A stretch of 64,000 nt of DNA, from NCBI RefSeq assembly GCF_902809845.1, contig NZ_CADDWI010000008.1, positions 496,001-560,000 on the forward strand. Direction: 5' to 3'. Below, one piece after another: positions 852-16,624 of the stretch. Each line of letters begins with the position of its first letter. Positions within the stretch are counted from its first letter, which is position 1. The notes under the pieces were generated by a model, which was not told the DNA's origin, searched no databases, and was given only the letters and a program-made list of their open reading frames with translations. The position numbers and the translations under genes were made by a program. The DNA is from Chelativorans sp. Marseille-P2723 (GTDB lineage: Bacteria > Pseudomonadota > Alphaproteobacteria > Rhizobiales > Rhizobiaceae).

Positions 852-1883
852 ATGATGATAGAAGGGCGGTACTTGGATGAAATAATGCGAAAGCTCTACA
901 GCGAGCTTTCGAAGAGCACTGACACGTTCGAAGCGAGCAAAGGAAAAGGACAAGATCTTCTAGGGCAAAAGATTTTGCTTAAAGACCCTCGCGCCCGAAT
1001 CAGCGCCACCGCAACACGCGGAAGACTCATTTCAGCGCTGGCGGAATTTTGCTGGTATATGGCTGGGAGTGCCGACCTAGATTTCATTCGCTTCTATTTG
1101 CCCGATTATCCTCCCGAAGGAGCCAAAGGGTCGCTTGAAGAAGCCTATGGACCTCGCCTTATTGGCACAGGTGAATTTGGCCGCTCATTCGACCAGATTA
1201 ACAGAGTGATCGACCGGCTACGGCGAAAATCTGACACGCGCCGCGCGGTGATTTCCATTCTTGAGCCAAGCGATCTTGAACCGGGGAAAGAGGAAGCCCC
1301 CTGCACCATAGCCCTGCAATTTATTCGCAGACGTGAACGCTTGCATCTCGTTGCGATGATGCGATCCAATGACGCCTATCTGGGCTTTCCCCATGACGTG
1401 TTCTGTTTCACGATGATCCAAGAGCTTGTTGCCCGTTCCCTCGGTATCCAGGTCGGCGAATATCATCATTTCGCGACGAGTTTGCATCTCTATGAGCGTG
1501 ACCAGGACAAGGTTTCCGCCTATCTCGATGAAGGATTCCAAAGTCCTACATTCGCGATGCCAAAAATGCCTTCCGGCTGTCAGCTCGCCAACCTTCAGGC
1601 TTTTCTCGATATCGAACAGTCGATCAGAAGCGGCAAGACCACAGCGGCGGCGCAGATAAAGCTGCCAGAATACTGGCGTGATTTGGCACTTGTACTCCTT
1701 CGCCTCGCGGATTCAAGATTTAGAAGGGGGCAGAAGACGCTTGAGGATAACTTCTCGAATATAAATAATAATTTTTACAGAAACTTCTTTATTAAGCGTC
1801 CAAAAAAGTTGCCGAAAGCGCCAGCACCCGTAATGATTCAAGACAAACTCGATTTAGGTGATGATGATGGCGTTAAGAATTAA
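852..1883 (+). CDS. thymidylate-synthase-like pyrimidine nucleotide C5-modifying enzyme (Asn to Asp at base-recognition site)
   Basis: This 343-residue protein belongs to the thymidylate synthase superfamily. Residues known from E. coli ThyA align without gaps: Cys146 with C151 (motif APCT), Arg166 with R171, Asp169 with D174, Asn177 with D182 (motif LGFPHD), His207 with H212 and Tyr209 with Y214. Glu58 probably corresponds to E65. Asn177 recognises uracil in ThyA, and Asp at that place is the known hallmark of dCMP hydroxymethylases. The sequence therefore suggests a cytidylate substrate rather than dUMP, or an altered reaction; this is inference. The loop holding ThyA Trp80 is shortened. 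The C-terminus from about residue 230 is divergent and longer than in ThyA, ending in a basic tail. The next gene overlaps it by about 20 bases, implying translational coupling. The DNA is AT-richer than the core genes. No clear ribosome binding site precedes either ATG (852 or 855). Confidence 0.85.
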   Translation: MMIEGRYLDEIMRKLYSELSKSTDTFEASKGKGQDLLGQKILLKDPRARISATATRGRLISALAEFCWYMAGSADLDFIRFYLPDYPPEGAKGSLEEAYGPRLIGTGEFGRSFDQINRVIDRLRRKSDTRRAVISILEPSDLEPGKEEAPCTIALQFIRRRERLHLVAMMRSNDAYLGFPHDVFCFTMIQELVARSLGIQVGEYHHFATSLHLYERDQDKVSAYLDEGFQSPTFAMPKMPSGCQLANLQAFLDIEQSIRSGKTTAAAQIKLPEYWRDLALVLLRLADSRFRRGQKTLEDNFSNINNNFYRNFFIKRPKKLPKAPAPVMIQDKLDLGDDDGVKN

Positions 1884-2799
1884 GGACCAACAAAAGTCCG
1901 ACGAAATTTCCGATTTGCTAGATAATTTTCCCAATGCCCAATTCCCGTTCGTGGGTCTGAATAGCCCTGAGCGCAAATCGGTTTTGGTTGCGCAACTTGT
2001 CGACAGCATCCGCCGGATCGAGTATCTTCGTATAACGTCGATCAGAGCCGGGTCAGCTAGTCTTTATACTCCTTATTCAGGGAGCTTCCAGCCTCTTGGC
2101 GGTGCGGCCGCGTTGCATAAGACGGGACGAACAGACGATGCCTATTGGTTGGTCTACCTGGCGACCCACTTCGGGAAGCACAAGACCGATGGCTGGAATC
2201 TGACCGAGGACTTCTATGGCCGGTTCGGGCAGGGCGGCGTCTGGGATTGGGCCTCAGCGAGCCAAGACCCTATGGCAATTTCAAATTGGCTACAGGCGAA
2301 CTACCCTCATGTCACCAGCGCCGGACGTTCCCGGCGTTTTGGCAATCACCGCAAGTTTGAAACTCTAAAACCGGGCCCCAAGGGCACCGGTCATGCCGTT
2401 GCAACCTACATTCAGTGGATTGCTGCGTATGGCTCCCATCAGGCATTGATTGGCGATGTGCAGAAGCGGGTCGGCCAAAATCCAAAAGATGTTTTCGCAT
2501 GTCTCCATGGCGAACTCGATCAGGTTGCCAAGCTTGGCAGGCTAGGCAAGTTCGACCTTCTGTGCAATCTCAGTAATCTGCTGATCGCTCCGATCCTTCC
2601 CGACAAAGCTTACATCGCTCAATCGACCGGTCCGAAAGCGGGGGCGCGTCTGCTGTTCGGCAATGGCCTGAGTGTCGCGCAACTCGAAACCGCATGTGTG
2701 GAATTGGCCGAGCATATGGATGTCAGCCCGCAGGCAATCGAAGATGCGCTGTGCAACTGGCAAAAAAGCCCGGCGGACTACATTTATTTCCGGGGCTAG
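1864..2799 (+). CDS. alpha-glutamyl/putrescinyl-thymine pyrophosphorylase-like protein (clade 3 type)
   Basis: This protein is about 311 residues. Triplets that could serve as starts occur in tandem at 1858 (GTG), 1861, 1864 and 1867 (ATG). An AGGTG motif at about 1856-1860 favours one of the later ATGs. From memory it matches the bacterial 'alpha-glutamyl/putrescinyl thymine pyrophosphorylase clade 3' family, a branch of the helix-hairpin-helix DNA glycosylase fold. The shared features are an early LVDSIRRIEY motif, a WLVYLATHFGKH segment followed by YGRFGQGGVWDW, a RRFGNHRKFETL motif with a nearby GTGHAVATYIQW helix, and a late STGPKAGARLLFG segment. Phage relatives are proposed to attach side chains to activated 5-hydroxymethyl-pyrimidines in DNA. 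Here it overlaps a TS-like gene, the association expected for a base hypermodification or repair pair. I could not identify catalytic residues with confidence. Its 3' end overlaps the convergent ImmA gene by four bases. Confidence 0.7.
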   Translation: MMALRIKDQQKSDEISDLLDNFPNAQFPFVGLNSPERKSVLVAQLVDSIRRIEYLRITSIRAGSASLYTPYSGSFQPLGGAAALHKTGRTDDAYWLVYLATHFGKHKTDGWNLTEDFYGRFGQGGVWDWASASQDPMAISNWLQANYPHVTSAGRSRRFGNHRKFETLKPGPKGTGHAVATYIQWIAAYGSHQALIGDVQKRVGQNPKDVFACLHGELDQVAKLGRLGKFDLLCNLSNLLIAPILPDKAYIAQSTGPKAGARLLFGNGLSVAQLETACVELAEHMDVSPQAIEDALCNWQKSPADYIYFRG

Positions 2800-3887
2800 T
2801 TTGTCCAGCGGAAGCGACGTTTGAGACGTTGCATCTGGTTAAATCCTATGATGCCCTCATGCTGGAGTTGACCTACTATCAAGCCCGGCGCTACGCCGAC
2901 CTTCTTTGCAAATTCGATAATCGGAAATCGTGAACCACCGAGCGAGAGCAATTCTTCACGATACGATACTGGGACAATGACCTGGGCGGCGTACTCGTTC
3001 GCTTCCTGCTCGCACTGTTCTTCCGTTAGCTCAGTGTTCTCCAATATTGGCATTTTATCATAGTGGAGAAGCAGATGCGCGATCTCGTGGAACAGCGAGA
3101 ACCAGAATTGATCGTCGGACAAGTAGCGAAAACTGACCTGAATATGGGGCGTTCCATCTGCCAGAATCCGCACCGCACCGCTCGCAGAGCACCCCTTGGG
3201 AGCCCTGACAATTGCGAACTTTACCCCGGCTTCGGCAAGGGCCGCTTTGAGTTTCGGCAAGAATAGCTCCGGACTCTTGTACCATGTCAGTCTTCGGAAT
3301 TGAGGAATCTGGCTTTCGAGCGCTTTCGGCGACCAGTCCGATACCTTGTCATTTTGGGTCTCTATTTCGCCTTGGCGGAGCCAGGCCGTCGTTGAAACTT
3401 CGCAAGATGCATATGCTGTCGACCGTCGATAGGCTGCTTGTTGAAATGCATTCTCATATCGCCCTTGCCACTGCGCGAGCGATGAAACACCGAAAAAATT
3501 CAGGCATTCTGCGATCTGATCGCCCCTGGATCGAGGAGTCTCGATCCATCCGAATTTCTGCATATCACTTAGCGGGAGCCCGCCAATCAGGTCATCTAAA
3601 CTGCTGACCCTAACATTCTCTGGTTCCGTCAAGCTTGCCCGGTAATCGTGTTCCCGTGCCATCCAAAAGTTTTCTGAAGCGCCGATGGCCCGCGCTAGGC
3701 GGCGCGCTAAATCCACATCGATAGCACGCGAACCGTCCAGGATTTTCTGTGCCACAGCCGCACTATGTCCGATTATGTGGGCAAACTGTTCGACTGTTAG
3801 CTCGCGTTCTTCGAGGATGCTTACGATGGTGTGTCCCGGCGGGGACACCCAGTCCGGTTTCTCAACGGTTCCATCATTTAACATCAT
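2796..3887 (-). CDS. HTH (XRE/HigA-like) and ImmA/IrrE zinc metallopeptidase fusion, antitoxin-type regulator
   Basis: This 363-residue protein has two parts. Residues about 18-75 form a HigA/XRE-type helix-turn-helix (segments LTVEQFAHIIGHS and DLARRLARAIGA). Residues about 200-330 form an ImmA/IrrE (COG2856) peptidase domain with the zinc motif HEIAH at 267-271 and a likely third ligand in the EQEANEYAA helix near residue 296. Such fusions usually repress their own operon and can cleave or sense a partner regulator. The upstream gene on the same strand encodes a HigB-like protein and overlaps the start of this gene by 14 bases, so the two form a toxin-antitoxin type operon with this as the DNA-binding partner. 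It is convergent with the pyrophosphorylase-like gene. All key metal ligands look intact. Confidence 0.85.
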   Translation of the reverse strand: MMLNDGTVEKPDWVSPPGHTIVSILEERELTVEQFAHIIGHSAAVAQKILDGSRAIDVDLARRLARAIGASENFWMAREHDYRASLTEPENVRVSSLDDLIGGLPLSDMQKFGWIETPRSRGDQIAECLNFFGVSSLAQWQGRYENAFQQAAYRRSTAYASCEVSTTAWLRQGEIETQNDKVSDWSPKALESQIPQFRRLTWYKSPELFLPKLKAALAEAGVKFAIVRAPKGCSASGAVRILADGTPHIQVSFRYLSDDQFWFSLFHEIAHLLLHYDKMPILENTELTEEQCEQEANEYAAQVIVPVSYREELLSLGGSRFPIIEFAKKVGVAPGLIVGQLQHEGIIGFNQMQRLKRRFRWTN

Positions 3888-4206
3888 TGATCCCCATCAG
3901 CTTAACCCGTCCGACCGTTGACCAATCGTACAGGCTGCCGTCATCCGCAACTGGATAATTGGGAGCCATCACGATTGAAAGGAGATTCGGGACTATTAGA
4001 GTGCACAGGTTTCCATCGACGGATACCTGCCCGACCAGCAGCTCAAATATATTGCTTGCCGCTTGAATATCAGAATGCCGCGCCTGTAAAGAAATAGCCG
4101 CCTCCTCTCCCAAATATTCTATCGCAGTGGAAGCATGAAAACAAATATCCCGTATAAGCTCTGAATTATATGAAATCAGCAAATAACCCTCACATTTTTG
4201 CTTCAA
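3874..4206 (-). CDS. HigB/RelE-like toxin candidate
   Basis: This is a 110-residue frame from a TTG at 4206. A second in-frame TTG at 4182 follows a GAGGG motif and gives an N-terminus (LLISYNSELIRDIC) that better fits the family. Content resembles the small RelE/HigB-fold proteins, often misnamed 'killer suppression protein HigA', that precede HTH-ImmA/IrrE genes. Shared features are an early beta strand, an E-L-I-R-D-I-C helix, an alpha segment LGEEAAISLQARHSDIQAASN and a final DWSTVGRVKLMGI strand. Proteins of this fold act as ribosome-dependent mRNA endonucleases, but activity here is inference. The segment is AT-rich compared with the core genome. The 14-base overlap with the ImmA gene indicates coupled translation. 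Confidence 0.65.
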   Translation of the reverse strand: MKQKCEGYLLISYNSELIRDICFHASTAIEYLGEEAAISLQARHSDIQAASNIFELLVGQVSVDGNLCTLIVPNLLSIVMAPNYPVADDGSLYDWSTVGRVKLMGINDVK

Positions 4207-6151: not shown

Positions 6152-7810
6152 CTATGTTTCCGGAAGCTGAGACTGACGCAGAAACGTTTTCGGCAACGGC
6201 TTTTCATCTTCCTGCAGGCTCTCGACCATCTGCTCGTATTGGACGTTCGGGTCCAGCATTGCCGCAAAAGCACCACGAGCGTACATCAGATCGTCGTCAG
6301 GAAAGAGTTCGGCGCGCACGTAAGTTTGAAACAGCTCGAACTCCGCGAGGTTCACCAGTGCCTTGCGCAGTTGTGACCTCCTTACGATGGACATCCTATT
6401 TGCCGCTGTCGCTGGCAGAGAGTTAAAGGCCCTCAGCTCTTCTTCTGCGCTTCCGAGTTTCCGCACGTGCACAAGCTTTTTGGCGGCGCGGAGGTCCGAA
6501 AGTTCCTGACTGATGTCTTTGCCCCGTAATCCCTTGGCAGTTTCAAGCCAACGTTTGTACCTTTTGAGTTCGACAGCTTTCATCCTCCACTCGGCTTCCG
6601 CAATCGCCTTGGGTTCGATTGGATTGGCCGGAACCATTCTTCTGGCATGGTCGACAATCGCGCGTCCTATCGCCTGGGCCAGCGGTGGAGGAACGGAATT
6701 CGCCAGCATCTGCTGCCGGCTGCCGCCGACTGGAGCAGCCTCGGTTTCGGACAAGCCCCCGTCTTCTGGCGAGGGGAGCTTCCAATCCCACCACTCAGGG
6801 TATCCCGTGAGGCGCGAGAACTGATGAAACGTCAGCTGCTGCAGCTTCCTGAGATCGACAGGATCACCAACGGTCGGCCGATAATTCTTCGACAGCCGGT
6901 CAGTCGATGTACGGATAAGGGTAGGGGAGGGCCTGTCGGTTCTCTGAATCGCTCCTGAGGCCGCGCCTCCGGGTGAACGGTAGTAAAAGCGTGTGTTCGG
7001 GTCTCGCTCTGATAAGCATTTCAGATCGCGCTTGCGCAACCGATAACTCTTGTATTCGGAACTATCCTTTGACACCAGGTCTGAACATTCTGGGTCCAGG
7101 GCAAAATCTTCAAACTGGGTTCCAAAGTCGTTGCCCAACAGATCCGCGACCGTCATGGGTTCACGAGATTTGTACTGGTTCAAGTATGCGTGGAGCCACC
7201 CGTCTGTCTCGTCTAAGCACCCGGCCAAGATGAGACGCTCTCGGTTCTGTGGAGTGCCGAAATAGGAAGCGTTCAATACAGTTTCAGTGAGACCATACCC
7301 GCCACGCTCAAAAATCGCACGTGCTCGTCGGTAGACCTCGGAGTTACGAAGTCCCTTTACGTTCTCCATGACAAAGTATCTCGGGCGTGCAGCGGCCACG
7401 AGAATAGCGAAGGCTTCCGTCAGGCTCGAAAGCGGACTCTTATCACCTTCTCCTTTTCCTGCCGCCGAAAACGGTTGGCAAGGTGGGCCACCGAAGATGA
7501 TGTCCGGACGGTCCAATGCGATTTCAGGAGCGATATCGATCACCGCCAGAAGATCGGCTACATGATGTGGAAGATGGCTTTTATGTATACGGCCGCGTTG
7601 CGACTTTCCTCCAGCCTTGGCGATCGACTGCTTCACTGGCGGGCGAAACAATCGTATTGGGTTCTTCACGTCCTTTATATTTGCCCGGTGGATGTCGATA
7701 ACCGCTGGGTCGTGATCCAAGGAACGGATGATTTTCACGCCTGCAGATTGCATGCCATAGGCGAATCCGCCTGAGCCGCAGAAAAGGTCGATTCCTCTCA
7801 ATGCCAGCAT
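6152..7810 (-). CDS. C5-cytosine DNA methyltransferase (Dcm family) with C-terminal extension
   Basis: This 552-residue protein methylates cytosine at C5 in double-stranded DNA using S-adenosylmethionine. Motif I is DLFCGSGGF (8-16), motif IV is GGPPCQPFS with catalytic C111, motif VI is ENV (149-151), motif VIII is QNRER (188-192), and the motif X region has QMLANSVPPPLA near 370. The target-recognition region lies between about 200 and 340. Residues after about 400 form an extra helical, charged region not present in simple Dcm enzymes, possibly for specificity or partner binding. The gene diverges from the DUF4011-helicase-nuclease gene across about 290 bases, suggesting a paired modification and restriction role. 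The recognition sequence cannot be read from the protein. Confidence 0.93.
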   Translation of the reverse strand: MLALRGIDLFCGSGGFAYGMQSAGVKIIRSLDHDPAVIDIHRANIKDVKNPIRLFRPPVKQSIAKAGGKSQRGRIHKSHLPHHVADLLAVIDIAPEIALDRPDIIFGGPPCQPFSAAGKGEGDKSPLSSLTEAFAILVAAARPRYFVMENVKGLRNSEVYRRARAIFERGGYGLTETVLNASYFGTPQNRERLILAGCLDETDGWLHAYLNQYKSREPMTVADLLGNDFGTQFEDFALDPECSDLVSKDSSEYKSYRLRKRDLKCLSERDPNTRFYYRSPGGAASGAIQRTDRPSPTLIRTSTDRLSKNYRPTVGDPVDLRKLQQLTFHQFSRLTGYPEWWDWKLPSPEDGGLSETEAAPVGGSRQQMLANSVPPPLAQAIGRAIVDHARRMVPANPIEPKAIAEAEWRMKAVELKRYKRWLETAKGLRGKDISQELSDLRAAKKLVHVRKLGSAEEELRAFNSLPATAANRMSIVRRSQLRKALVNLAEFELFQTYVRAELFPDDDLMYARGAFAAMLDPNVQYEQMVESLQEDEKPLPKTFLRQSQLPET

Positions 7811-8102
7811 TCCAAGCCCCTGTTTCCCCGCTTGGGAAATTGGCTACGGAAAGTTGATGGCTCGTTAATCCGTACTCCTGGCAAGACCGGACGGGTTCTC
7901 AGTCGCCGGTATCCGGATGCGATATGGGCATTCCCGCCGGGCAGCGGGATTCTGCGATTCCCTCTGCTTCTGGATTGCATCGCTGAAGGCTGCCGCCAGA
8001 GTGAAGGAGTGCGAGACTCCTTGACCATGAGAACCAGACCGGCATTGCATCGATCGCTGCTGCCGTTAAAGTTTAGGCGGAACTCTGGGGCAGGGGGACT
8101 TT

Positions 8103-11100
8103 ATGGATAATCAAACTGCGGCCGCCGCAGCATTTTCGATCAGGGATCGACTTCTTGCCGATCGCCGCATCCTGCTCGATTTGAGCACTCGGAACCGTCT
8201 GATCAACGTTCCCCTGCGTTCGCGAAACATACGGACGATAGAGATCGTCGATGAGAAGACGACTGAAATTTATCGGCTTCTGGTTGACGGGAAGGGGCTG
8301 ACTTTTCTCCCGGGTCGGCAACTCACGGACGAAGAGAAGGCGGAACTCGGGGAAACTGACGATATTACCGGGGGTATTCCGCAGCCGGACGACGATGAGG
8401 AAGTGGACGAGCGCGGTATAGCGCGCCGCCATCTGGATACACGGCTGCAGACCCGTTTGACCTCGCAAGGACTCCAGAAGCGGCTGTTCGACATCTGGTA
8501 TGATGCTCGAACACTTGAGGAAGAGCAGGGCGTCAACGTCCTCTATCTAGCGTTGGGCCTTTTGCGGTGGTTCGATGCCGATAACTCGGACATCGAGCGT
8601 CACGCGCCGCTTGTCCTTCTTCCCGTGCAACTCGACCGCACAAGTGCTGCCGACCGGTTCACGCTCCGTTGGCGGGGAGAGCCGCCTTCATCGAATCTGT
8701 CGCTTCAGGCCAAGATGAACTCGGAGTTCGGTTTGAAACTGCCGGATCTGGAAGATGAGGAAGAGGTCGATATTGCAGCCTACATCGAAAAGGTGGCCGA
8801 AACAGTATCAGGCAAAGAAAGATGGTCTGTTCTGCCGGACGGGATGGTTCTTGGCTTTTTCTCTTTTGCCAAATTCCTGATGTACCGCGATCTTGATCCG
8901 GACAACTGGCCTGAAGAGAAATCTCTCGATCGTCACCACGTTATCGAAGGCCTGTTGGGCGACGGGTTTCCGATGCGTGATCCAATCATTCCGGACACCG
9001 GGCGCATAGATCCCTTCATCCCGCCGGAGAAAACCCATCACGTAGTGGATGCGGACTCGTCTCAGACGGTCGTTATCGAGGAGGTGGCACAAGGCGGCCA
9101 TCTCGTGGTGAAAGGGCCGCCCGGTACCGGAAAGAGCCAGACCATCACCAACATAATCGCCGCGGCTGCCAAGGAAGGGCGGAAGGTTCTCTTTATGGCA
9201 GAGAAAATGGCGGCTTTGGATGTGGTCCATCGGCGATTGAGAGATGCCGGTCTCGGTCCGCTGACCCTGGAACTCCATTCGAACAAGGCCAACAAGCGGG
9301 CACTTTTGGAAGAGCTACGCAGGACAAAAGATCTGGTCGGGCGGGTCCCGCAGAGCGACGCCACCGTCATCACCCGCCTGAAGGCAGCTCAGGACGGGCT
9401 CAACGGTCATAGCGATGCGATGCATGCGGTGCATGAGCCCAGTGGCATGACGCCCTACCAGTTGATCGGACACCTTGTCCGTATCGGCGAAGGGGATGGG
9501 CTTCCCGGATTTGCACTTTCGGCCCCAGAGAGCTGGGGACCCCTGGACTATGAAAAACGACTGGATGTCTGCAACGAACTGACGGACCGTTTCAGTTCAA
9601 TCGGCCAGCCTGTAGAGCATCCTTGGTATGGTGTGCGACGAGAGGCTCTCGATCCTGGTGAGATCGACCACCTTCGTCGGAGTGTCGCCGACCTCTGCTC
9701 GGATTTCGAGAGCATTAGAACCAATTCTCGGGAGGCCTCCAAGCGCCTCAACATCGGCGAGCCCAAGAAGTTCTCCGATCTCGTGCGTCTGTTGAAGGTG
9801 TTACGGGCAATCGCGTCACTGCCGGATTTCGACCGGAAGGCCTTTGCGGACCCCATATGGCAGCAACCGGGCAGGATCGCAGAACTGATCGAGGCGGGTG
9901 CAAGGCTCAAAACACTTCGGGAGGCGGTGGACACTTCGTTTGCGGAGACAGTCTGGGCATCCTCCCTGAGCGAATGCAGAGCTGTGTTGGCAGCGAAGGG
10001 AGCGTCGATACTCCGGATTCTCAGTGGCCATTATCGATCACAGCTCGCCCTGCTGAAGTCCTATCTGAAGCAGCCATTGCCGAAAGAACTTCCTGCCAGG
10101 TTGGCTTTGGTCGACACGGTCATCTCGGCACAGGAGGCCCGGCGCGACTTCGACGGCTTGAAGGCGACCGGCGCTGCAGCGATGGGAGCGCACTGGAGTG
10201 GTGAGAATTCGGATTGGGATCGCGCCCGTACGGTGGTTGAATGGCGTCAGGTGAACGATGATCTTCTGACACCGGACATCCTCAAGTATCTCTCTGAGGC
10301 AACGGATTTACCACGGCAGATTGAGATTGCCCGGGATCTGTCGGAATTGCTTGCCCGATTTGTGCAGGGATGGGGCGCACTGCAAAAGTTCCTTGACCTC
10401 GATCTGCGGCAATCGCTGGCGGCTGAGAGTTTTGCATCCGCGGAGGTTGAGGCGATCTCGCAGCGGCTCGGCCAATGGGATGTCAACATCGAGAGCATCA
10501 CGAAATGGGTGGCGTTTTGTGACCGATGCCGGACCGCGTCCTCTCTCGGCCTCCAAAGCCTTGCTGACGGTGTACTTCGTGGCGAACTCGGCGCGGACAC
10601 GCTGGTCCCGACGCTGGAAAGATCATACTTCGAGGCGCTTCGTGCCGACTTCTTTGCGCGGGAACCTGACCTCAAACGCTTCGACGGCGAACTACATTCC
10701 CGCTTGGTGGAATCGTTCCGCGGGCTGGAGGCTGCCCGCATGTCGCTTGCCCGAGAGCAGATCGTTGCCCAGCATGCAATGGAATTACCTCGCAGCAATG
10801 GCGGTATCGGTCCTCTCGGGGTCCTCAACGGTGAATTGGCGAAGAAGCGTAACCATCTACCGATACGTCAGCTTCTCGATAGGGCAGGGCCAGTCATTCA
10901 GCAGATCAAGCCGATCTTCATGATGAGTCCGCTTTCGATCGCTCAGTTCCTGAAGCCGGGCTCGATTTCGTTCGATCTTCTGGTTGTCGATGAGGCTTCG
11001 CAGATCGAACCGATCGATGCCCTGGGGGCGATCGCCCGGTGCGCCCAGGTCGTTGTCGTGGGGGACGAGCGTCAGCTCCCGCCAACGCGCTTCTTTGCGA

Positions 11101-12902
11101 AGCTTACCTCCGACGTTGACGAGCAAGAGGACGATGACGGGGTCACATTCCAAGCCCGGGATGCGGAATCGATCCTTGACCTCTGCCTCGCCAAGGGCAT
11201 GCCGTTTCGGATGCTTAACTGGCACTACCGCAGCAAGCACCAGTCCCTGATCGCGGTATCCAACCGGGAATTCTACGACAACAGGCTCTTCATCGTTCCG
11301 AGCCCCTATGATGCAGTCGCAGGGATGGGACTCAAGTTCAACTACCTGCCAGACGCTCATTACGACCGTGGAAACACCCGCACGAATCCAGTCGAAGCTA
11401 AGGCCGCCGCTGAAGCTGTAATCCGGCACGCCACGGAGCGGCCCGAGATTTCACTTGGGGTGGCAACGTTCTCGGTCGCTCAGCGTCAGGCGATACTGAA
11501 GGAACTTGAGCTTCTGCGCCGGGCACATCCTGAAACGGAAGACTTCTTCAACCGGGGTTCCACCGAGCCTTTCTTCGTCAAGAACCTCGAGAACATCCAG
11601 GGAGACGAGCGCGACGTCATCTTCATATCGGTTGGGTACGGGAAGACGAGCACCGGCTACATGGCGATGAGCTTCGGTCCGCTGAATTCAGAAGGTGGCG
11701 AGCGACGCCTGAACGTGTTGATCTCGCGGGCTAAACTTCGGTGCGAAGTCTTCTCTTCCATAACGGGGGACGACATCGACCTTGAACGGGTCCGCAGCCG
11801 AGGCGTCGCTGCGCTCAAGCTCTTCCTCACGTTCGCACAGACGGGCAAGTTTGGTATTGCGGAAGAGACCGGCAACGGACCGGACTCCGTCTTCGAAGAG
11901 CAGGTGGCCGACAAGCTTCGATCGCTTGGGTATGACGTGAAAACCCAGATCGGGTCGGCCGGATTTTTCGTCGATCTCGCCATCTCCGACCCCGAAAAGC
12001 CGGGGCGCTTCATTTTGGGAATCGAATGCGACGGCGCACAATACCATTCATCCCGGTCGGCGAGAGAACGTGACCGCTTGAGGCAGAGCGTGCTGGAAGA
12101 CCATGGATGGATCATTCATCGGATTTGGTCGACGGACTGGTATCTCCGCCCCAATGAAGAATTGGCAAAGGTTACTGCCGCGATTGAGAGTGCGAAGGCG
12201 GAATGGCGGAACCGGGACGACGATCTGGCTAAGCCTCGGCAAGCGGTGCCGCTGCACTTCACGACGCACACTGAAGCAGATGTCGACGTGATCACCGCGC
12301 ACGTGTCGCCGGAAGAACCACCTCTGGCAATTCCGTATGTAGAAGCCACTTTCCCAGTCCGGACCGACCGGGAGCCCCATGAAGTCTCTGTTTCCGAGAT
12401 GGCGCGCTATGTTGTTGAGGTAATCAGACAAGAAGGCCCGGTCCACGAAAGTGAGATCGTCACGAGAATACGATCGGCGTGGGGATTGGCGCGAGCGGGT
12501 AACCGGATTCGGGACGCGGTTCTAGCAGGGATAAGGGCAGCCAAGTCGCAGGGCGGCATCAATGGTGAGGATCAATTCTATATCGTACCCGGCCAAGAGA
12601 TCAGGGTTCGGGATCGTTCAGCGGTCCTGTCTCAGTCACTAAGGCGGCCTGAGGTTTTGCCGCCGGCCGAGATTCAGGCGGCAGCTGTTGCCGTTGTGGA
12701 GGCAAACTTCGGAGCCAATCGGGAGGAACTCGTCACGGCTATTGCACGATCGTTCGGGTTTGCATCGACGAGCGCGCAGCTTCGGGTGGTGATCGAGCAT
12801 GCGATAGATCGAGCGATCCAGAGCGGAGCCATCAAAGACGAGAAAGGGTTCCTTGCGAAAGTAACCCAGTCCGAGAGCGTGCCGAGCGTTACAGTGCACT
12901 GA
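8103..12902 (+). CDS. DUF4011-SF1 helicase-Vsr-like nuclease-DUF3320 defence protein
   Basis: This is a 1,599-residue multidomain protein with an ATG start and a GGGGGA ribosome binding site. The N-terminal DUF4011 signature is LLDLSTRNRLINVP (about residue 20). The superfamily 1 helicase core has Walker A GPPGTGKS (338-345), Walker B VDEAS (963-966), the GDERQLPP motif just after it, IQGDERDVIF near 1165 and LNVLISRAK near 1205. A PD-(D/E)XK Vsr-like nuclease domain (MTES_1575 type) follows at about 1265-1355, with FEEQVADKLRSLGY, FFVDLAI and IECDGAQYH as the active-site strand. A DUF3320 module closes the protein (about 1425-1580). From memory, this architecture has been reported as a single-gene phage-defence protein (Hhe in one survey). 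Inferred job: unwinding and nicking or cutting of foreign DNA. The divergent cytosine methyltransferase could mark self DNA. All catalytic motifs look intact. Confidence 0.9.
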   Translation: MDNQTAAAAAFSIRDRLLADRRILLDLSTRNRLINVPLRSRNIRTIEIVDEKTTEIYRLLVDGKGLTFLPGRQLTDEEKAELGETDDITGGIPQPDDDEEVDERGIARRHLDTRLQTRLTSQGLQKRLFDIWYDARTLEEEQGVNVLYLALGLLRWFDADNSDIERHAPLVLLPVQLDRTSAADRFTLRWRGEPPSSNLSLQAKMNSEFGLKLPDLEDEEEVDIAAYIEKVAETVSGKERWSVLPDGMVLGFFSFAKFLMYRDLDPDNWPEEKSLDRHHVIEGLLGDGFPMRDPIIPDTGRIDPFIPPEKTHHVVDADSSQTVVIEEVAQGGHLVVKGPPGTGKSQTITNIIAAAAKEGRKVLFMAEKMAALDVVHRRLRDAGLGPLTLELHSNKANKRALLEELRRTKDLVGRVPQSDATVITRLKAAQDGLNGHSDAMHAVHEPSGMTPYQLIGHLVRIGEGDGLPGFALSAPESWGPLDYEKRLDVCNELTDRFSSIGQPVEHPWYGVRREALDPGEIDHLRRSVADLCSDFESIRTNSREASKRLNIGEPKKFSDLVRLLKVLRAIASLPDFDRKAFADPIWQQPGRIAELIEAGARLKTLREAVDTSFAETVWASSLSECRAVLAAKGASILRILSGHYRSQLALLKSYLKQPLPKELPARLALVDTVISAQEARRDFDGLKATGAAAMGAHWSGENSDWDRARTVVEWRQVNDDLLTPDILKYLSEATDLPRQIEIARDLSELLARFVQGWGALQKFLDLDLRQSLAAESFASAEVEAISQRLGQWDVNIESITKWVAFCDRCRTASSLGLQSLADGVLRGELGADTLVPTLERSYFEALRADFFAREPDLKRFDGELHSRLVESFRGLEAARMSLAREQIVAQHAMELPRSNGGIGPLGVLNGELAKKRNHLPIRQLLDRAGPVIQQIKPIFMMSPLSIAQFLKPGSISFDLLVVDEASQIEPIDALGAIARCAQVVVVGDERQLPPTRFFAKLTSDVDEQEDDDGVTFQARDAESILDLCLAKGMPFRMLNWHYRSKHQSLIAVSNREFYDNRLFIVPSPYDAVAGMGLKFNYLPDAHYDRGNTRTNPVEAKAAAEAVIRHATERPEISLGVATFSVAQRQAILKELELLRRAHPETEDFFNRGSTEPFFVKNLENIQGDERDVIFISVGYGKTSTGYMAMSFGPLNSEGGERRLNVLISRAKLRCEVFSSITGDDIDLERVRSRGVAALKLFLTFAQTGKFGIAEETGNGPDSVFEEQVADKLRSLGYDVKTQIGSAGFFVDLAISDPEKPGRFILGIECDGAQYHSSRSARERDRLRQSVLEDHGWIIHRIWSTDWYLRPNEELAKVTAAIESAKAEWRNRDDDLAKPRQAVPLHFTTHTEADVDVITAHVSPEEPPLAIPYVEATFPVRTDREPHEVSVSEMARYVVEVIRQEGPVHESEIVTRIRSAWGLARAGNRIRDAVLAGIRAAKSQGGINGEDQFYIVPGQEIRVRDRSAVLSQSLRRPEVLPPAEIQAAAVAVVEANFGANREELVTAIARSFGFASTSAQLRVVIEHAIDRAIQSGAIKDEKGFLAKVTQSESVPSVTVH

Positions 12903-14158: not shown

Positions 14159-16624
14159 CTACTTGGTTTTGAGATTTACGTTGATGCTCCCGCAGCTACA
14201 GCGAAGCTGTTCCGAAGCCCCTTTGCGTGGTGTGAGGTAGGGATAGCCACCGCATTTCGGATTTTGACAGCGAATATGGCCAAGTAACGCCTTGAAAGCG
14301 TCAGTCACCTCCTTGAACTCGGTCCTCGTGAAGTTTTCCCACTCGTTGAAATGCACGGACTTGTTGATCGCCCATTGCTCGGCATTGGTCTTCTGAATCA
14401 GCATCGTGGCTTCCGCCAATTTTGCTTCCAGCGCCGCCTTGGTCTCGTCGTGGTCCCAATGTGCTGCGGACTTGATTCCCTTCTCCAGACGGTTCTTCCA
14501 TCGGTCGAGCACAGACGGCAACAAGTCGCCAAGATCGTAATTCGCATCGCCCCGATACTCGACCTGCGCCCGCAAATTGTCGGCAAGAACGGCAGAGATA
14601 TATTCAAGATAACGGCGCATCAACGCAGCGGCGCGTGGCACATCATCCTTGTCCAGAGCCTCCTGGATTTCGGTCCAGACGTCAGTATCATCCCAAATGC
14701 GAGGTCCTGTTTCGATATTCCAGCCGCCGAAGAACTGGCCCTTCTGGATCAGACCCTCGGTCTTCATATATTGCAGCCACACCCGATCATGTGTTGTTAG
14801 AATGAATTGAGTATCGGGAAATTTTGTCTTGAGCAGGCGGCATACTTCGCGCCGGTGGCCGGTATCTACGGACATAAGGACGTCATCGAGCACGGCAAAG
14901 CTGAATTTGTCGCCGAGCGTGTGCTTCATCAGTGCCAGATAAAGGCACAGTCCCATACCGTCTTGATGCCCTTCGCTATGATAAGCGCCGGGCGGGAATG
15001 TTCCCCTGCCATAGAAGTCGACATTGAAACTGAGTTTCGCCGGCTCGGCCTTCAACTCACCGACAAATTTACCTTCATCGTCATTGATAGCCTTGTAGAA
15101 GTCGGTAAAATCCTTGGCGACGGCATCGTAGATGTCTTCGAGGACCTTGTTGGAAACGGCATTGTAGTGGTCATGCACCTTCTGCGCTGTGGCATTTCGC
15201 ATGCCCATTGCCTTGGCGGTTCTGGTCGTAGAGAGCAGTCTTTCATAGCGATCCTGGAGGACGGCGAGAAATGCAATCGCTTTGTCCTTGGCCGAGCTGT
15301 CGGGCAAAGCCGTGAAGCCTTTTTGCGTCTCGTCTAGTCGTGCCTGCGCTTCTTTCCCAACTTCCCACCACTTGTTCTCCAGCGCAGAAATTGCTCCTTC
15401 AATCTTGGAAGGATCCTCCTGGAATGCCTTGAGCGACGCCTTCACGTCACTAAGGGCCTCGGCGTAACTATCGAGCTCGGCGCGCAGGACGGAGGGATTA
15501 AGGGCCCCCGCGTAGTCAGCCGCCTTGCGGATCGCTGTTGCCCGTTCATCAATCCCGCCCATAACTGCGCTGATCGCCTTGTTAAGACTTTCGAGCAGCG
15601 TGCCCATCTCTTCGGCACTCAAGAGCTTCGCCTTGAGGTGTTCGCGCAACTCATCGGCGTTCCAAGGCGTGTCGCAAAGAGGGCAGGCATCCTCCGTAAC
15701 CAGTTGCAGGCCGGTGGTAATGAAGCCATGCGACCGGGCGAGCGACAGAGCCCTTTCGTCCTCCTTTAGCTTTCGCAAAGCTGACAGGGCGCTTTCCCGA
15801 TGCGCTTTCAACGTGGCGGGTTCAGCTGCCTTAATGGCGGCGGACAACGCAGCAAGGTCCGCAAGGGCGACATCTTTTGCTATGCCGGGTTTCTCGGAAT
15901 CTTTCCCATCCTTTGGCGCACCTTCCTTGAAAGACGTTTGCGGGGTGAGCTCGGCCAAAGTCGGCAAACCAAGAATGCCGCGCTGCGCATTGGCTCTTTC
16001 CAGCACTTTTTCCCGGTCAAGCGCGGGAAGCCCGAGCGCCGTCTTGAGGTCGTCTTCGGCACGCTTCCGCGCGCGCTCCGCTTCCTCGTCCTCCCGTTTG
16101 CATATGTTTGCGTAGCTGACGAACGCTCTGCGCAAGCCTCCAATATGCTCAAGGCGCAGCAGATTCTGCACGTCAGTGGAACGCTGCGCGGGTGGCGTGA
16201 CAATGTATTTGGCGATCTCACGACGGGAGAGGGCAAACTCGGGGTGCGATTGCAGTTCGTCAAAGACTGCCTCCGCTGCCGGATCAGCGGGCGTAAGGAT
16301 CATGATACGCGGATTCTTGACGGTGCGCGTTATCGTGACATCCTTACCGAGAGAAGGGATAGTCGCAGTAATCGCAACCTTGGCTTTGTCAGGGTTTTTG
16401 CGATGTTCGACGTGAGGGGCATGCCCTTTAACGCTTAGTTCGCCCTGGCCTTGTCCGGAAAGTCTCGTGACATTGCCGGTGAGACAAAACTCGATGGCAT
16501 CGACCACGCCGCTCTTGCCGGTGCCATTCGGTCCGCAAATCCCGAAATTTGCACCGCCCAAATCAAGATCAAGTTCCCGGATGCCGCGAAACTCCTCGAT
16601 ATGAATGGTCTTTATGCGGATCAC
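14159..16624 (-). CDS. Rad50/RecF-like AAA (SMC-type) ATPase with zinc hook and C-terminal zinc ribbon
   Basis: This 821-residue ATPase starts at a GTG that overlaps the preceding stop (GTGA). Walker A is GPNGTGKS (31-38), a degenerate signature is SEGHQDGMGL (550-559), Walker B is FAVLDD (576-581) and the H-loop is TTHD (610-613). Between the two halves lie coiled-coil helices with a Rad50-style CPLC hook (C314, C317). The C-terminus carries a second metal site (CQNPKC, then CSC) within the last 40 residues, which is unusual for Rad50. Such proteins bind DNA ends or act as ATP-driven sensors in defence systems. No Mre11-type nuclease is adjacent; the only partner is the small upstream gene. 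It could be an uncharacterised two-gene defence or repair module. Confidence 0.85.
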   Translation of the reverse strand: MIRIKTIHIEEFRGIRELDLDLGGANFGICGPNGTGKSGVVDAIEFCLTGNVTRLSGQGQGELSVKGHAPHVEHRKNPDKAKVAITATIPSLGKDVTITRTVKNPRIMILTPADPAAEAVFDELQSHPEFALSRREIAKYIVTPPAQRSTDVQNLLRLEHIGGLRRAFVSYANICKREDEEAERARKRAEDDLKTALGLPALDREKVLERANAQRGILGLPTLAELTPQTSFKEGAPKDGKDSEKPGIAKDVALADLAALSAAIKAAEPATLKAHRESALSALRKLKEDERALSLARSHGFITTGLQLVTEDACPLCDTPWNADELREHLKAKLLSAEEMGTLLESLNKAISAVMGGIDERATAIRKAADYAGALNPSVLRAELDSYAEALSDVKASLKAFQEDPSKIEGAISALENKWWEVGKEAQARLDETQKGFTALPDSSAKDKAIAFLAVLQDRYERLLSTTRTAKAMGMRNATAQKVHDHYNAVSNKVLEDIYDAVAKDFTDFYKAINDDEGKFVGELKAEPAKLSFNVDFYGRGTFPPGAYHSEGHQDGMGLCLYLALMKHTLGDKFSFAVLDDVLMSVDTGHRREVCRLLKTKFPDTQFILTTHDRVWLQYMKTEGLIQKGQFFGGWNIETGPRIWDDTDVWTEIQEALDKDDVPRAAALMRRYLEYISAVLADNLRAQVEYRGDANYDLGDLLPSVLDRWKNRLEKGIKSAAHWDHDETKAALEAKLAEATMLIQKTNAEQWAINKSVHFNEWENFTRTEFKEVTDAFKALLGHIRCQNPKCGGYPYLTPRKGASEQLRCSCGSINVNLKTK

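Follow-up and report, generated by a model that had tools for sequence, protein, structure and literature searches.

Enzymes of the aGPT-Pplase/ADDT families are held to act on DNA, and the phage thymine hypermodifications of the ADDT type include those of the SP10 and phiW-14 types. Here we describe a bacterial relative of these enzymes, encoded in a 64,000-nucleotide stretch of the genome of Chelativorans sp. Marseille-P2723 (the window below, whose positions serve as coordinates), where it belongs to a compact gene cassette together with a thymidylate synthase (TS)-fold protein and a pair of proteins resembling a toxin–antitoxin (TA) module. The cassette comprises four genes, or five in about three of ten cases, and appears to move horizontally. 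With a probability of about 0.5, we regard it as an inducible mobile cassette that would most likely protect the cell from phages or from other incoming DNA, by way of a hypermodified cytosine and a HigB-HigA/M78 pair.

Several described systems come close to parts of the cassette (papers cited by PMC number are represented by excerpts throughout). In the TS family, Asp at the position of a ThyA Asn marks cytosine substrates, and Ser and Arg mark deoxyribose as opposed to Ala176 and Lys133 in MilA (PMC5175136); T4 dCMP hydroxymethylase carries Asp145 three residues before Cys148 (PMC6400193). Fusions of Xre and peptidase domains accompanying RelE have been predicted to form three-component TA systems (Makarova et al., 2009; PMC2701414), and in the antiphage system PD-lambda-2 a HigB-like protein A counteracts the toxicity that its HigA-peptidase partner B shows by itself, a third protein, C, being required for defence (PMC9519451). 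According to the excerpts of the DefensePredictor study, aGPT-Pplase is one of the defence domains predicted but still to be validated, and domains of thymidylate synthase and of 5-hydroxymethyluracil kinase are among the newly validated ones (PMC13092281).

Aminoacyl-thymine hypermodification, the aGPT-Pplase families, HigA-M78 pairs and defence by glycosylases are established, as is the prediction that aGPT-Pplase is a defence domain; what looks new is a cassette of fixed composition that includes a hydroxymethylase of the cytosine type. No description of the cassette, or of a cytosine-type TS combined with aGPT-Pplase3, was found in searches of the openly licensed PMC literature, although an earlier mention of a TS/aGPT-Pplase3 pair is possible. 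Such systems may already be discussed in Iyer et al. 2013 and Burroughs et al. 2015. The excerpts of two further papers (PMC10273834, PMC12923530) have no bearing on the cassette.

Organisation and distribution of the cassette

The initial annotation had placed two overlapping open reading frames (ORFs) near the start of the window and read them as a candidate two-gene system for pyrimidine hypermodification. Both genes lie where it put them, and two more belong to the unit:

852..1883, + strand: TS-fold protein, predicted dCMP 5-hydroxymethylase, 343 aa (PF00303, E 2.4e-25)
1867..2799, + strand: PP, the name used here for the aGPT-Pplase3 / amino-acid:DNA transferase-like protein, 310 aa (PF18746, E 2.8e-80; PF18724, E 1.3e-59)
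2796..3887, - strand: helix-turn-helix domain (HigA-like) fused to an M78/ImmA-IrrE metalloprotease, 363 aa (PF06114, E 1.1e-9; PF01381, E 1.5e-5)
3874..4206, - strand: S4, a small HigB/RelE-like protein, 110 aa (hhalign against the PF05015 HigB set)

The TS and PP frames overlap by 17 bases, or by 26 if PP starts at the alternative GTG at 1858. The M78 gene converges tail to tail on the PP gene with a 4-base overlap, and the S4 gene lies upstream of the M78 gene and overlaps its start by 14 bases.

This arrangement was followed through 111 PP-bearing sequences, made up of the window, 19 IMG/VR sequences, 4 other genomes of the same order, 7 plasmids (of 8 records, 7 were opened) and 80 GTDB contigs (the best 80 of 204 PP relatives); two copies of the window (L001, L003) and the true ThyA locus (L002) are excluded from these counts. 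All 111 hold the TS gene, 109 the M78 gene and 105 the S4 gene, a piece of a gene being counted as presence (TS is split in L008, L038 and L056, PP in L033 and L066, M78 in L059, L066 and L099). The two sequences lacking M78 are L007, whose contig ends at PP, and L038, a broken copy; of the six lacking S4, five are cut off by the edge of their contig (L007, L008, L011, L035, L074), and L038 is the sixth. PP and M78 genes converge in 108 of 109 cases (the exception is L049), with stop codons within -25 to +60 bases of each other in 100 of the 108, and S4 lies on the M78 strand in all 105. The counts are not numbers of independent events, since near-identical copies are among the 111 (e.g. L005/L006, L009/L010/L011/L029 and L007/L050) and since the loci of the M78 and TS scans described below overlap the 19 IMG/VR loci. 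A two-gene system was rejected on the fixed linkage of M78 and S4 to PP-bearing loci.

PP relatives occur in 8 of 72,556 plasmid records, at 19 IMG/VR loci and at 204 places on GTDB contigs. With the own genome counted in, 5 of 297 genomes from its order and 1 of 385 from the class sample have one. The cassette is spread over at least eight phyla: the titles of the GTDB records name Pseudomonadota, Acidobacteria, Chloroflexi, Bacteroidota genera, Actinobacteria, Planctomycetes, Gemmatimonadales and Verrucomicrobiaceae, and the rows of the trees fall into 8 phylum groups, with 24 of 98 rows in none. A phage-borne hypermodification system was considered and rejected, as none of 50,697 phage records (INPHARED) matches PP at E 1e-5, though an aGPT-Pplase clade 3 domain has been reported in Acinetobacter phage SH-Ab15599 (PMC8878043).

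The linkage also holds when it is read in the reverse direction, from profile scans of IMG/VR. Among 80 of 101 M78 loci, PP is present in 25 of 25 scoring at least 413.9 bits and in none of the 55 scoring at most 385.1 bits; among 80 of 584 TS loci, it is present in 17 of 17 at 382.1 bits or more and in none of the 63 at 248.6 bits or less. Because cassette members went into the profiles used for scoring, it is the gap between the scores and not their order that counts as evidence. One TS group and one M78 group are therefore tied to PP, and S4-M78 pairs also occur by themselves: in the same 80 of 101 loci, S4 is found near 54 of the 55 M78 genes without PP.

Patristic distances of PP, TS and M78 agree with one another across 98 loci (Mantel r 0.69-0.78, the largest value in 500 permutations being 0.153), an agreement that may come in part from shared host descent. 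The trees leave out L038, L066 and a number of copies that are near-duplicates, cut or broken (L006, L010, L011, L019, L035, L056, L059, L099, L033, L007 and L031); the sets for hhalign and motif profiles leave out L038, L066, duplicates and rows outside the length limits.

The TS-fold protein as a predicted dCMP hydroxymethylase

The genome carries a separate true ThyA (C8:1075877), to which the TS of the window is 25% identical (E 1e-15), so that an ordinary ThyA reading of the latter was rejected. In line with the initial annotation, which had aligned them to ThyA residues, C151, R171, D174, H212 and Y214 match the own ThyA, the stretch from C151 to Y214 being free of gaps (gaps lie before and after it), and the Asn with which ThyA reads uracil is replaced by D182. 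This replacement is not due to chance, because every one of the 111 TS proteins encoded at PP-bearing loci has Asp here and the own ThyA has Asn. The proposed cytosine-type active site has proved right. Across the 111 cassette proteins (the own ThyA left out), the catalytic Cys C151 is invariant and the active-site Glu E65 is found in 109, with a gap in 2. The residues of the deoxyribose type are Ser172, found in all 111, and Arg130, found in 106; of the other five proteins, 4 have Lys at position 130 and 1 a gap. The own ThyA, with Asn at the position of 182, likewise has Ser and Arg at those of 172 and 130. Three positions ahead of the Cys, 100 of the 111 carry an acidic residue and the own ThyA a Leu.

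The best solved relative in the PDB is the CMP 5-hydroxymethylase MilA (5b6d, E 5.8e-39). A MilA-like role in nucleoside antibiotic synthesis with CMP as substrate is disfavoured, the sugar-selecting residues being Ser and Arg and not Ala and Lys. On these residues the TS of the window is predicted to convert dCMP to 5-hydroxymethyl-dCMP.

The PP protein

That the second gene encodes an aGPT-Pplase relative, as first suggested from likeness, is borne out by a strong match to PF18746 aGPT-Pplase3 (270 bits, the curated cut-off being 25) and by the match to PF18724, the ADDT profile. The lack of any profile match, which the initial annotation had named as a refutation, was thus not observed; no NCBIfam profile matches. 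The AlphaFold 2 (AF2) model of PP is confident (pLDDT 93.0, pTM 0.91). Among viral models Foldseek returned three matches at E 0.001, the best named one being an ADDT protein (E 3.0e-5, prob 1.00), on account of which PP is ADDT-like at the level of its predicted model; aGPT-Pplase1 models rank after ADDT, the two together at prob 0.97-1.00. Against the PDB nothing reaches E 0.001 with the PP model. The top of that ranking is 8z2m, the 5-phosphomethyl-dU glycinyltransferase (PUGT) of phage PaMx, for which no paper was matched in PMC full text, and helix-hairpin-helix glycosylases rank below it. Sequence searches of the PDB with the window protein and another member gave no credible match. In a Leptospira plasmid copy the aGPT-Pplase3 gene lies in two overlapping pieces (L033 6977-7910).

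The HigA-M78 protein and S4

The M78 protein matches the PADLOC profile PD-Lambda-2_B (PDLC03982, E 6.3e-29), and it scores 35.5 bits with TIGR02607 HigA, under the cut-off of 47.7. Its zinc motif (His267, Glu268, His271, Glu293) is invariant in 101 of 101 aligned proteins. S4 has no Pfam match and no credible match in a sequence search of the PDB; profile comparison of 95 S4 proteins with 30 PF05015 HigB proteins by hhalign gave a probability of 92.9 (E 3.7e-7) and, in reverse, of 95.7 (E 9.5e-9), against at most 0.6 with the unrelated UDG, PP and TS sets (UDG standing for uracil-DNA glycosylase).

HigA-M78 genes without TS and PP were seen at 55 IMG/VR loci (L194, L198-L213, L215-L249, L251-L253), with a HigB-like gene nearby in 54. 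In 20 listed loci, such stand-alone S4-M78 pairs often lie beside lambdoid-looking phage genes, as judged from the sequences by eye.

An accessory UDG-fold gene and other recurrent neighbours

A fifth gene is found in 34 of the 111 loci, between TS and PP in 33 and between PP and M78 in one (L072); the first 30 kb of the window hold no member. Its product measures 261-336 residues (with starts taken from the longest ORF), and its AF2 model (pLDDT 93.5) matches UdgX, TDG and family 4 UDG (Foldseek prob 1.00, E 8.4e-5; TM 0.43/0.57 for the best hit). The UDG motif residues Asn46 and His237 are present in 33 of 33 proteins. The fold thus supports a UDG and the profile does not, comparison with a family 4 UDG profile giving no match (0.4); two members scanned had no Pfam match, and a PDB sequence search no credible one.

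Further recurrent neighbours were drawn from 1,156 flanking ORFs, of whose clusters some were profiled. A cluster found in 15 loci (L007, L008, L044, L050, L054, L059, L060, L062, L064, L065, L067, L072 and L102-L104), upstream of the TS or the UDG-fold gene, is of the DUF4031 family in L104, the sole member profiled. An Mrr_cat-type endonuclease cluster (profiled in L029 and L054) lies upstream of TS in seven loci (L010, L029, L054, L059, L065, L070, L095), in six of them on the opposite strand. A NUDIX cluster, profiled in L094 only, occurs in four loci, in three of which it stands just upstream of TS on the same strand.

Genomic setting and mobility

Around the cassette of the window there are genes of known or predicted defence systems, and a PDC-S36 and an AAA protein besides:

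1-439, - strand, continuing in L334 17297-18439: Shedu gene (SduA, DUF4263; SduA E 9.7e-25), adjoining the cassette
6152-7810, - strand: C5-cytosine DNA methyltransferase, near the cassette
8103-12902, + strand: DUF4011/AAA/REase_MTES_1575/DUF3320 helicase-nuclease, 1599 aa (PADLOC PDC-S37 at 1905.7 bits, also Hhe)
14159-16624, - strand: SMC/RecF-like ATPase (best PADLOC match LmuB, E 9.7e-30)

In E. coli the cassette (L335 7158-10487; in its complete extent 7158-10600) is present at 80% coverage or more in 226 of 5,426 complete genomes (about 4%), and five more genomes hold parts of it; all 240 places, partial ones included, are chromosomal. Since 226 of the 231 records with any match reach at least 99% identity, it probably spread there once and recently. 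In three E. coli loci viewed, type I restriction-modification genes and a MazG-like gene stand beside the cassette, a dGTPase-family gene is near in two, and S4 is present but unannotated. The plasmid copies come from seven genera of alpha- and gammaproteobacteria, actinobacteria and spirochaetes, and several of the seven plasmid regions viewed have transposase, recombinase or integrase genes near the cassette; the replicon of the 80 GTDB contigs is mostly not stated.

A possible defence function and its alternatives

The analysis shows which genes are present, their order and conservation, the folds of the models and the active-site residues. From families, folds and residues we infer reactions, a trigger and an outcome along the following lines. 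The TS would hydroxymethylate dCMP to 5-hydroxymethyl-dCMP. PP may then exchange the new group for an amine or amino acid, or decorate it with one, either on the nucleotide or after its incorporation into DNA; this is the weakest step, because the cassette does not include a kinase by which the hydroxymethyl group would be activated. Where its gene is present, the UDG-fold protein, with its intact motifs, could excise the modified or the unmodified base. The HigB-like/HigA-M78 pair, as sensor, repressor or killer, would keep the enzymes silent until infection releases them, the toxicity of the pair, or both, as its family and its fixed linkage suggest. A more specific version, in which the product is an amino-acid- or amine-substituted 5-methylcytosine made on demand, a cytosine counterpart of the aminoacyl-thymines of phages, and in which the pair senses phage or the state of modification, is put forward tentatively as a possibility.

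The defence reading, at its probability of about 0.5, draws on the fixed linkage, the exclusive score groups and the agreement of the trees, on the residues of a dCMP hydroxymethylase, the family and model of PP, the UDG fold and the PD-Lambda-2_B match, and on the defence setting and mobility of the cassette. The observation from which the initial annotation started is confirmed, and its interpretation is partly supported: a candidate pyrimidine hypermodification with a flavour of defence still stands, and the restriction to two genes does not, given M78 in 109, S4 in 105 and the UDG-fold gene in 34 of 111 loci.

A number of results weigh against this reading. TS and PP have no PADLOC match at E 1, and the fold match of PP to PUGT is weak, the best PDB hit 8z2m standing at E 0.27, prob 0.72 and TM 0.33. 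Neither a kinase for 5-hydroxymethyl-dCMP nor one acting on the hydroxymethyl group is part of the cassette; it had been remarked early on that no kinase or oxidase was in view, rightly so, and the HMUDK_hel profile (PF18723) had no match in the own genome, nor in any control genome. Five S4 proteins scanned did not match PD-Lambda-2_A. The two promoter ends share no operator, own pairs having on average 14.67 of 20 matches and mismatched pairs 14.40. Asp182 is also found in 54 of 54 distinct IMG/VR relatives of TS outside the cassette, and is hence common to cassette TS proteins and probably phage enzymes. The presence of the cassette on plasmids would also fit a role in addiction or self-protection, and no experiment on it was found in searches of the openly licensed PMC literature.

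This last role is the first of the alternatives to be weighed. TS and PP could modify the DNA of the element (or of the host) against host restriction, with the HigB-HigA/M78 pair as addiction module, so that the whole would serve the element and not the cell. Copies on plasmids (8 of 72,556 records) and IMG/VR contigs (19 loci), several of the plasmid copies near mobility genes, are consistent with this, as is the frequency of free-standing S4-M78 pairs in IMG/VR; yet every E. coli copy is chromosomal, and PP is absent from the INPHARED phage records, where self-modification would be most expected. We consider a purely selfish cassette unlikely, albeit a serious contender.

Likewise improbable but deserving attention is a nucleotide-level poison or signal, in which modified dCMP would be an antimetabolite or a ligand, for instance of the M78 protein, and DNA would not be the target. 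It would account for the missing kinase that would raise hydroxymethyl-dCMP to the triphosphate, the NUDIX cluster (4 loci) and the MazG-like gene beside three E. coli copies hint at work on the nucleotide pool, and MilA, the nearest solved relative of TS, functions in nucleoside antibiotic synthesis. However, PP has the family and the model of enzymes held to act on DNA, a gene of DNA-glycosylase fold is added in 34 of 111 loci, and the residues of TS favour dCMP over CMP, unlike those of MilA.

It is very doubtful that PP is itself a base-excising enzyme related to helix-hairpin-helix glycosylases, in a system that makes hydroxymethyl-dC and then destroys DNA containing it. The Foldseek matches of PP to AGOG 1xqp (E 1.2, prob 0.28), 3-methyladenine glycosidase 2h56 (E 2.2, prob 0.38) and the model of a viral endonuclease III (E 0.15, prob 0.89) would point that way, but the ADDT and aGPT-Pplase1 models and PUGT match better, and 34 of the 111 loci encode a UDG-fold protein as a product distinct from PP. 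Finally, the genes might be chance neighbours, a TS paralogue and its partner hitch-hiking in islands alongside a TA pair unconnected with them, as the location of several copies in islands and plasmids rich in mobile or defence genes might suggest. This reading can be dismissed, as it is already contradicted by the PP-M78 convergence in 108 of 109 cases across phyla, the exclusive score groups and the agreement of the trees.

If the defence reading is true, bacteria would turn hypermodified cytosine, best known from phages, into an immune tool with a TA pair as guard. No tested function was found for the aGPT-Pplase3 proteins of the cassette or for its group of HigA-M78 proteins; both would then acquire one, and a new modified base and transferase might come to light. 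The E. coli copy makes the cassette directly testable in the laboratory.

Comparison with known systems

The cassette TS shares with T4 dCMP hydroxymethylase (gp42) and MilA the TS fold, the catalytic Cys, the Glu, the cytosine-type Asp and the acidic residue three before the Cys. It differs from MilA, with its Ala176 and Lys133, in carrying Ser172 and Arg130 of the deoxyribose type, and from both in its setting, a bacterial cassette and not a phage or an antibiotic cluster.

With the phage aGPT-Pplase/ADDT systems of thymine hypermodification, such as PUGT (gp46) of phage PaMx, PP shares the PF18746 and PF18724 profiles and an ADDT-like model, its likeness to PUGT 8z2m being weak. Those systems use hydroxymethyl-uracil, whereas the partner TS of the cassette would by its residues make hydroxymethyl-cytosine. 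No 5-hydroxymethyl-deoxyuridine DNA kinase of the kind in the phage ADDT pathway was recognised among the recurrent neighbours of the cassette, some of which were profiled, and PP is tied to a TA-like pair, unlike its phage counterparts. In DefensePredictor (PMC13092281), the figure on the predicted aGPT-Pplase system also labels helix-turn-helix and UDG domains, a point of likeness to the cassette; the excerpts of its text describe no dCMP-hydroxymethylase/HigB/M78 cassette.

The M78 protein matches the B component of PD-lambda-2, and a HigB-like gene lies upstream of it; the pair may work in the manner of that system. The cassette is not filed as PD-lambda-2, because S4 does not match the A profile, and it adds TS, PP and sometimes the UDG-fold gene. 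As with Brig1 and other antiphage DNA glycosylases (PMC11078745; PMC13216743), it would link a glycosylase fold to a modified cytosine in defence islands. However, Brig1 acts on glucosyl-hydroxymethyl-C made by the phage, while the UDG-fold protein of the cassette travels with the enzymes that would make the modified base.

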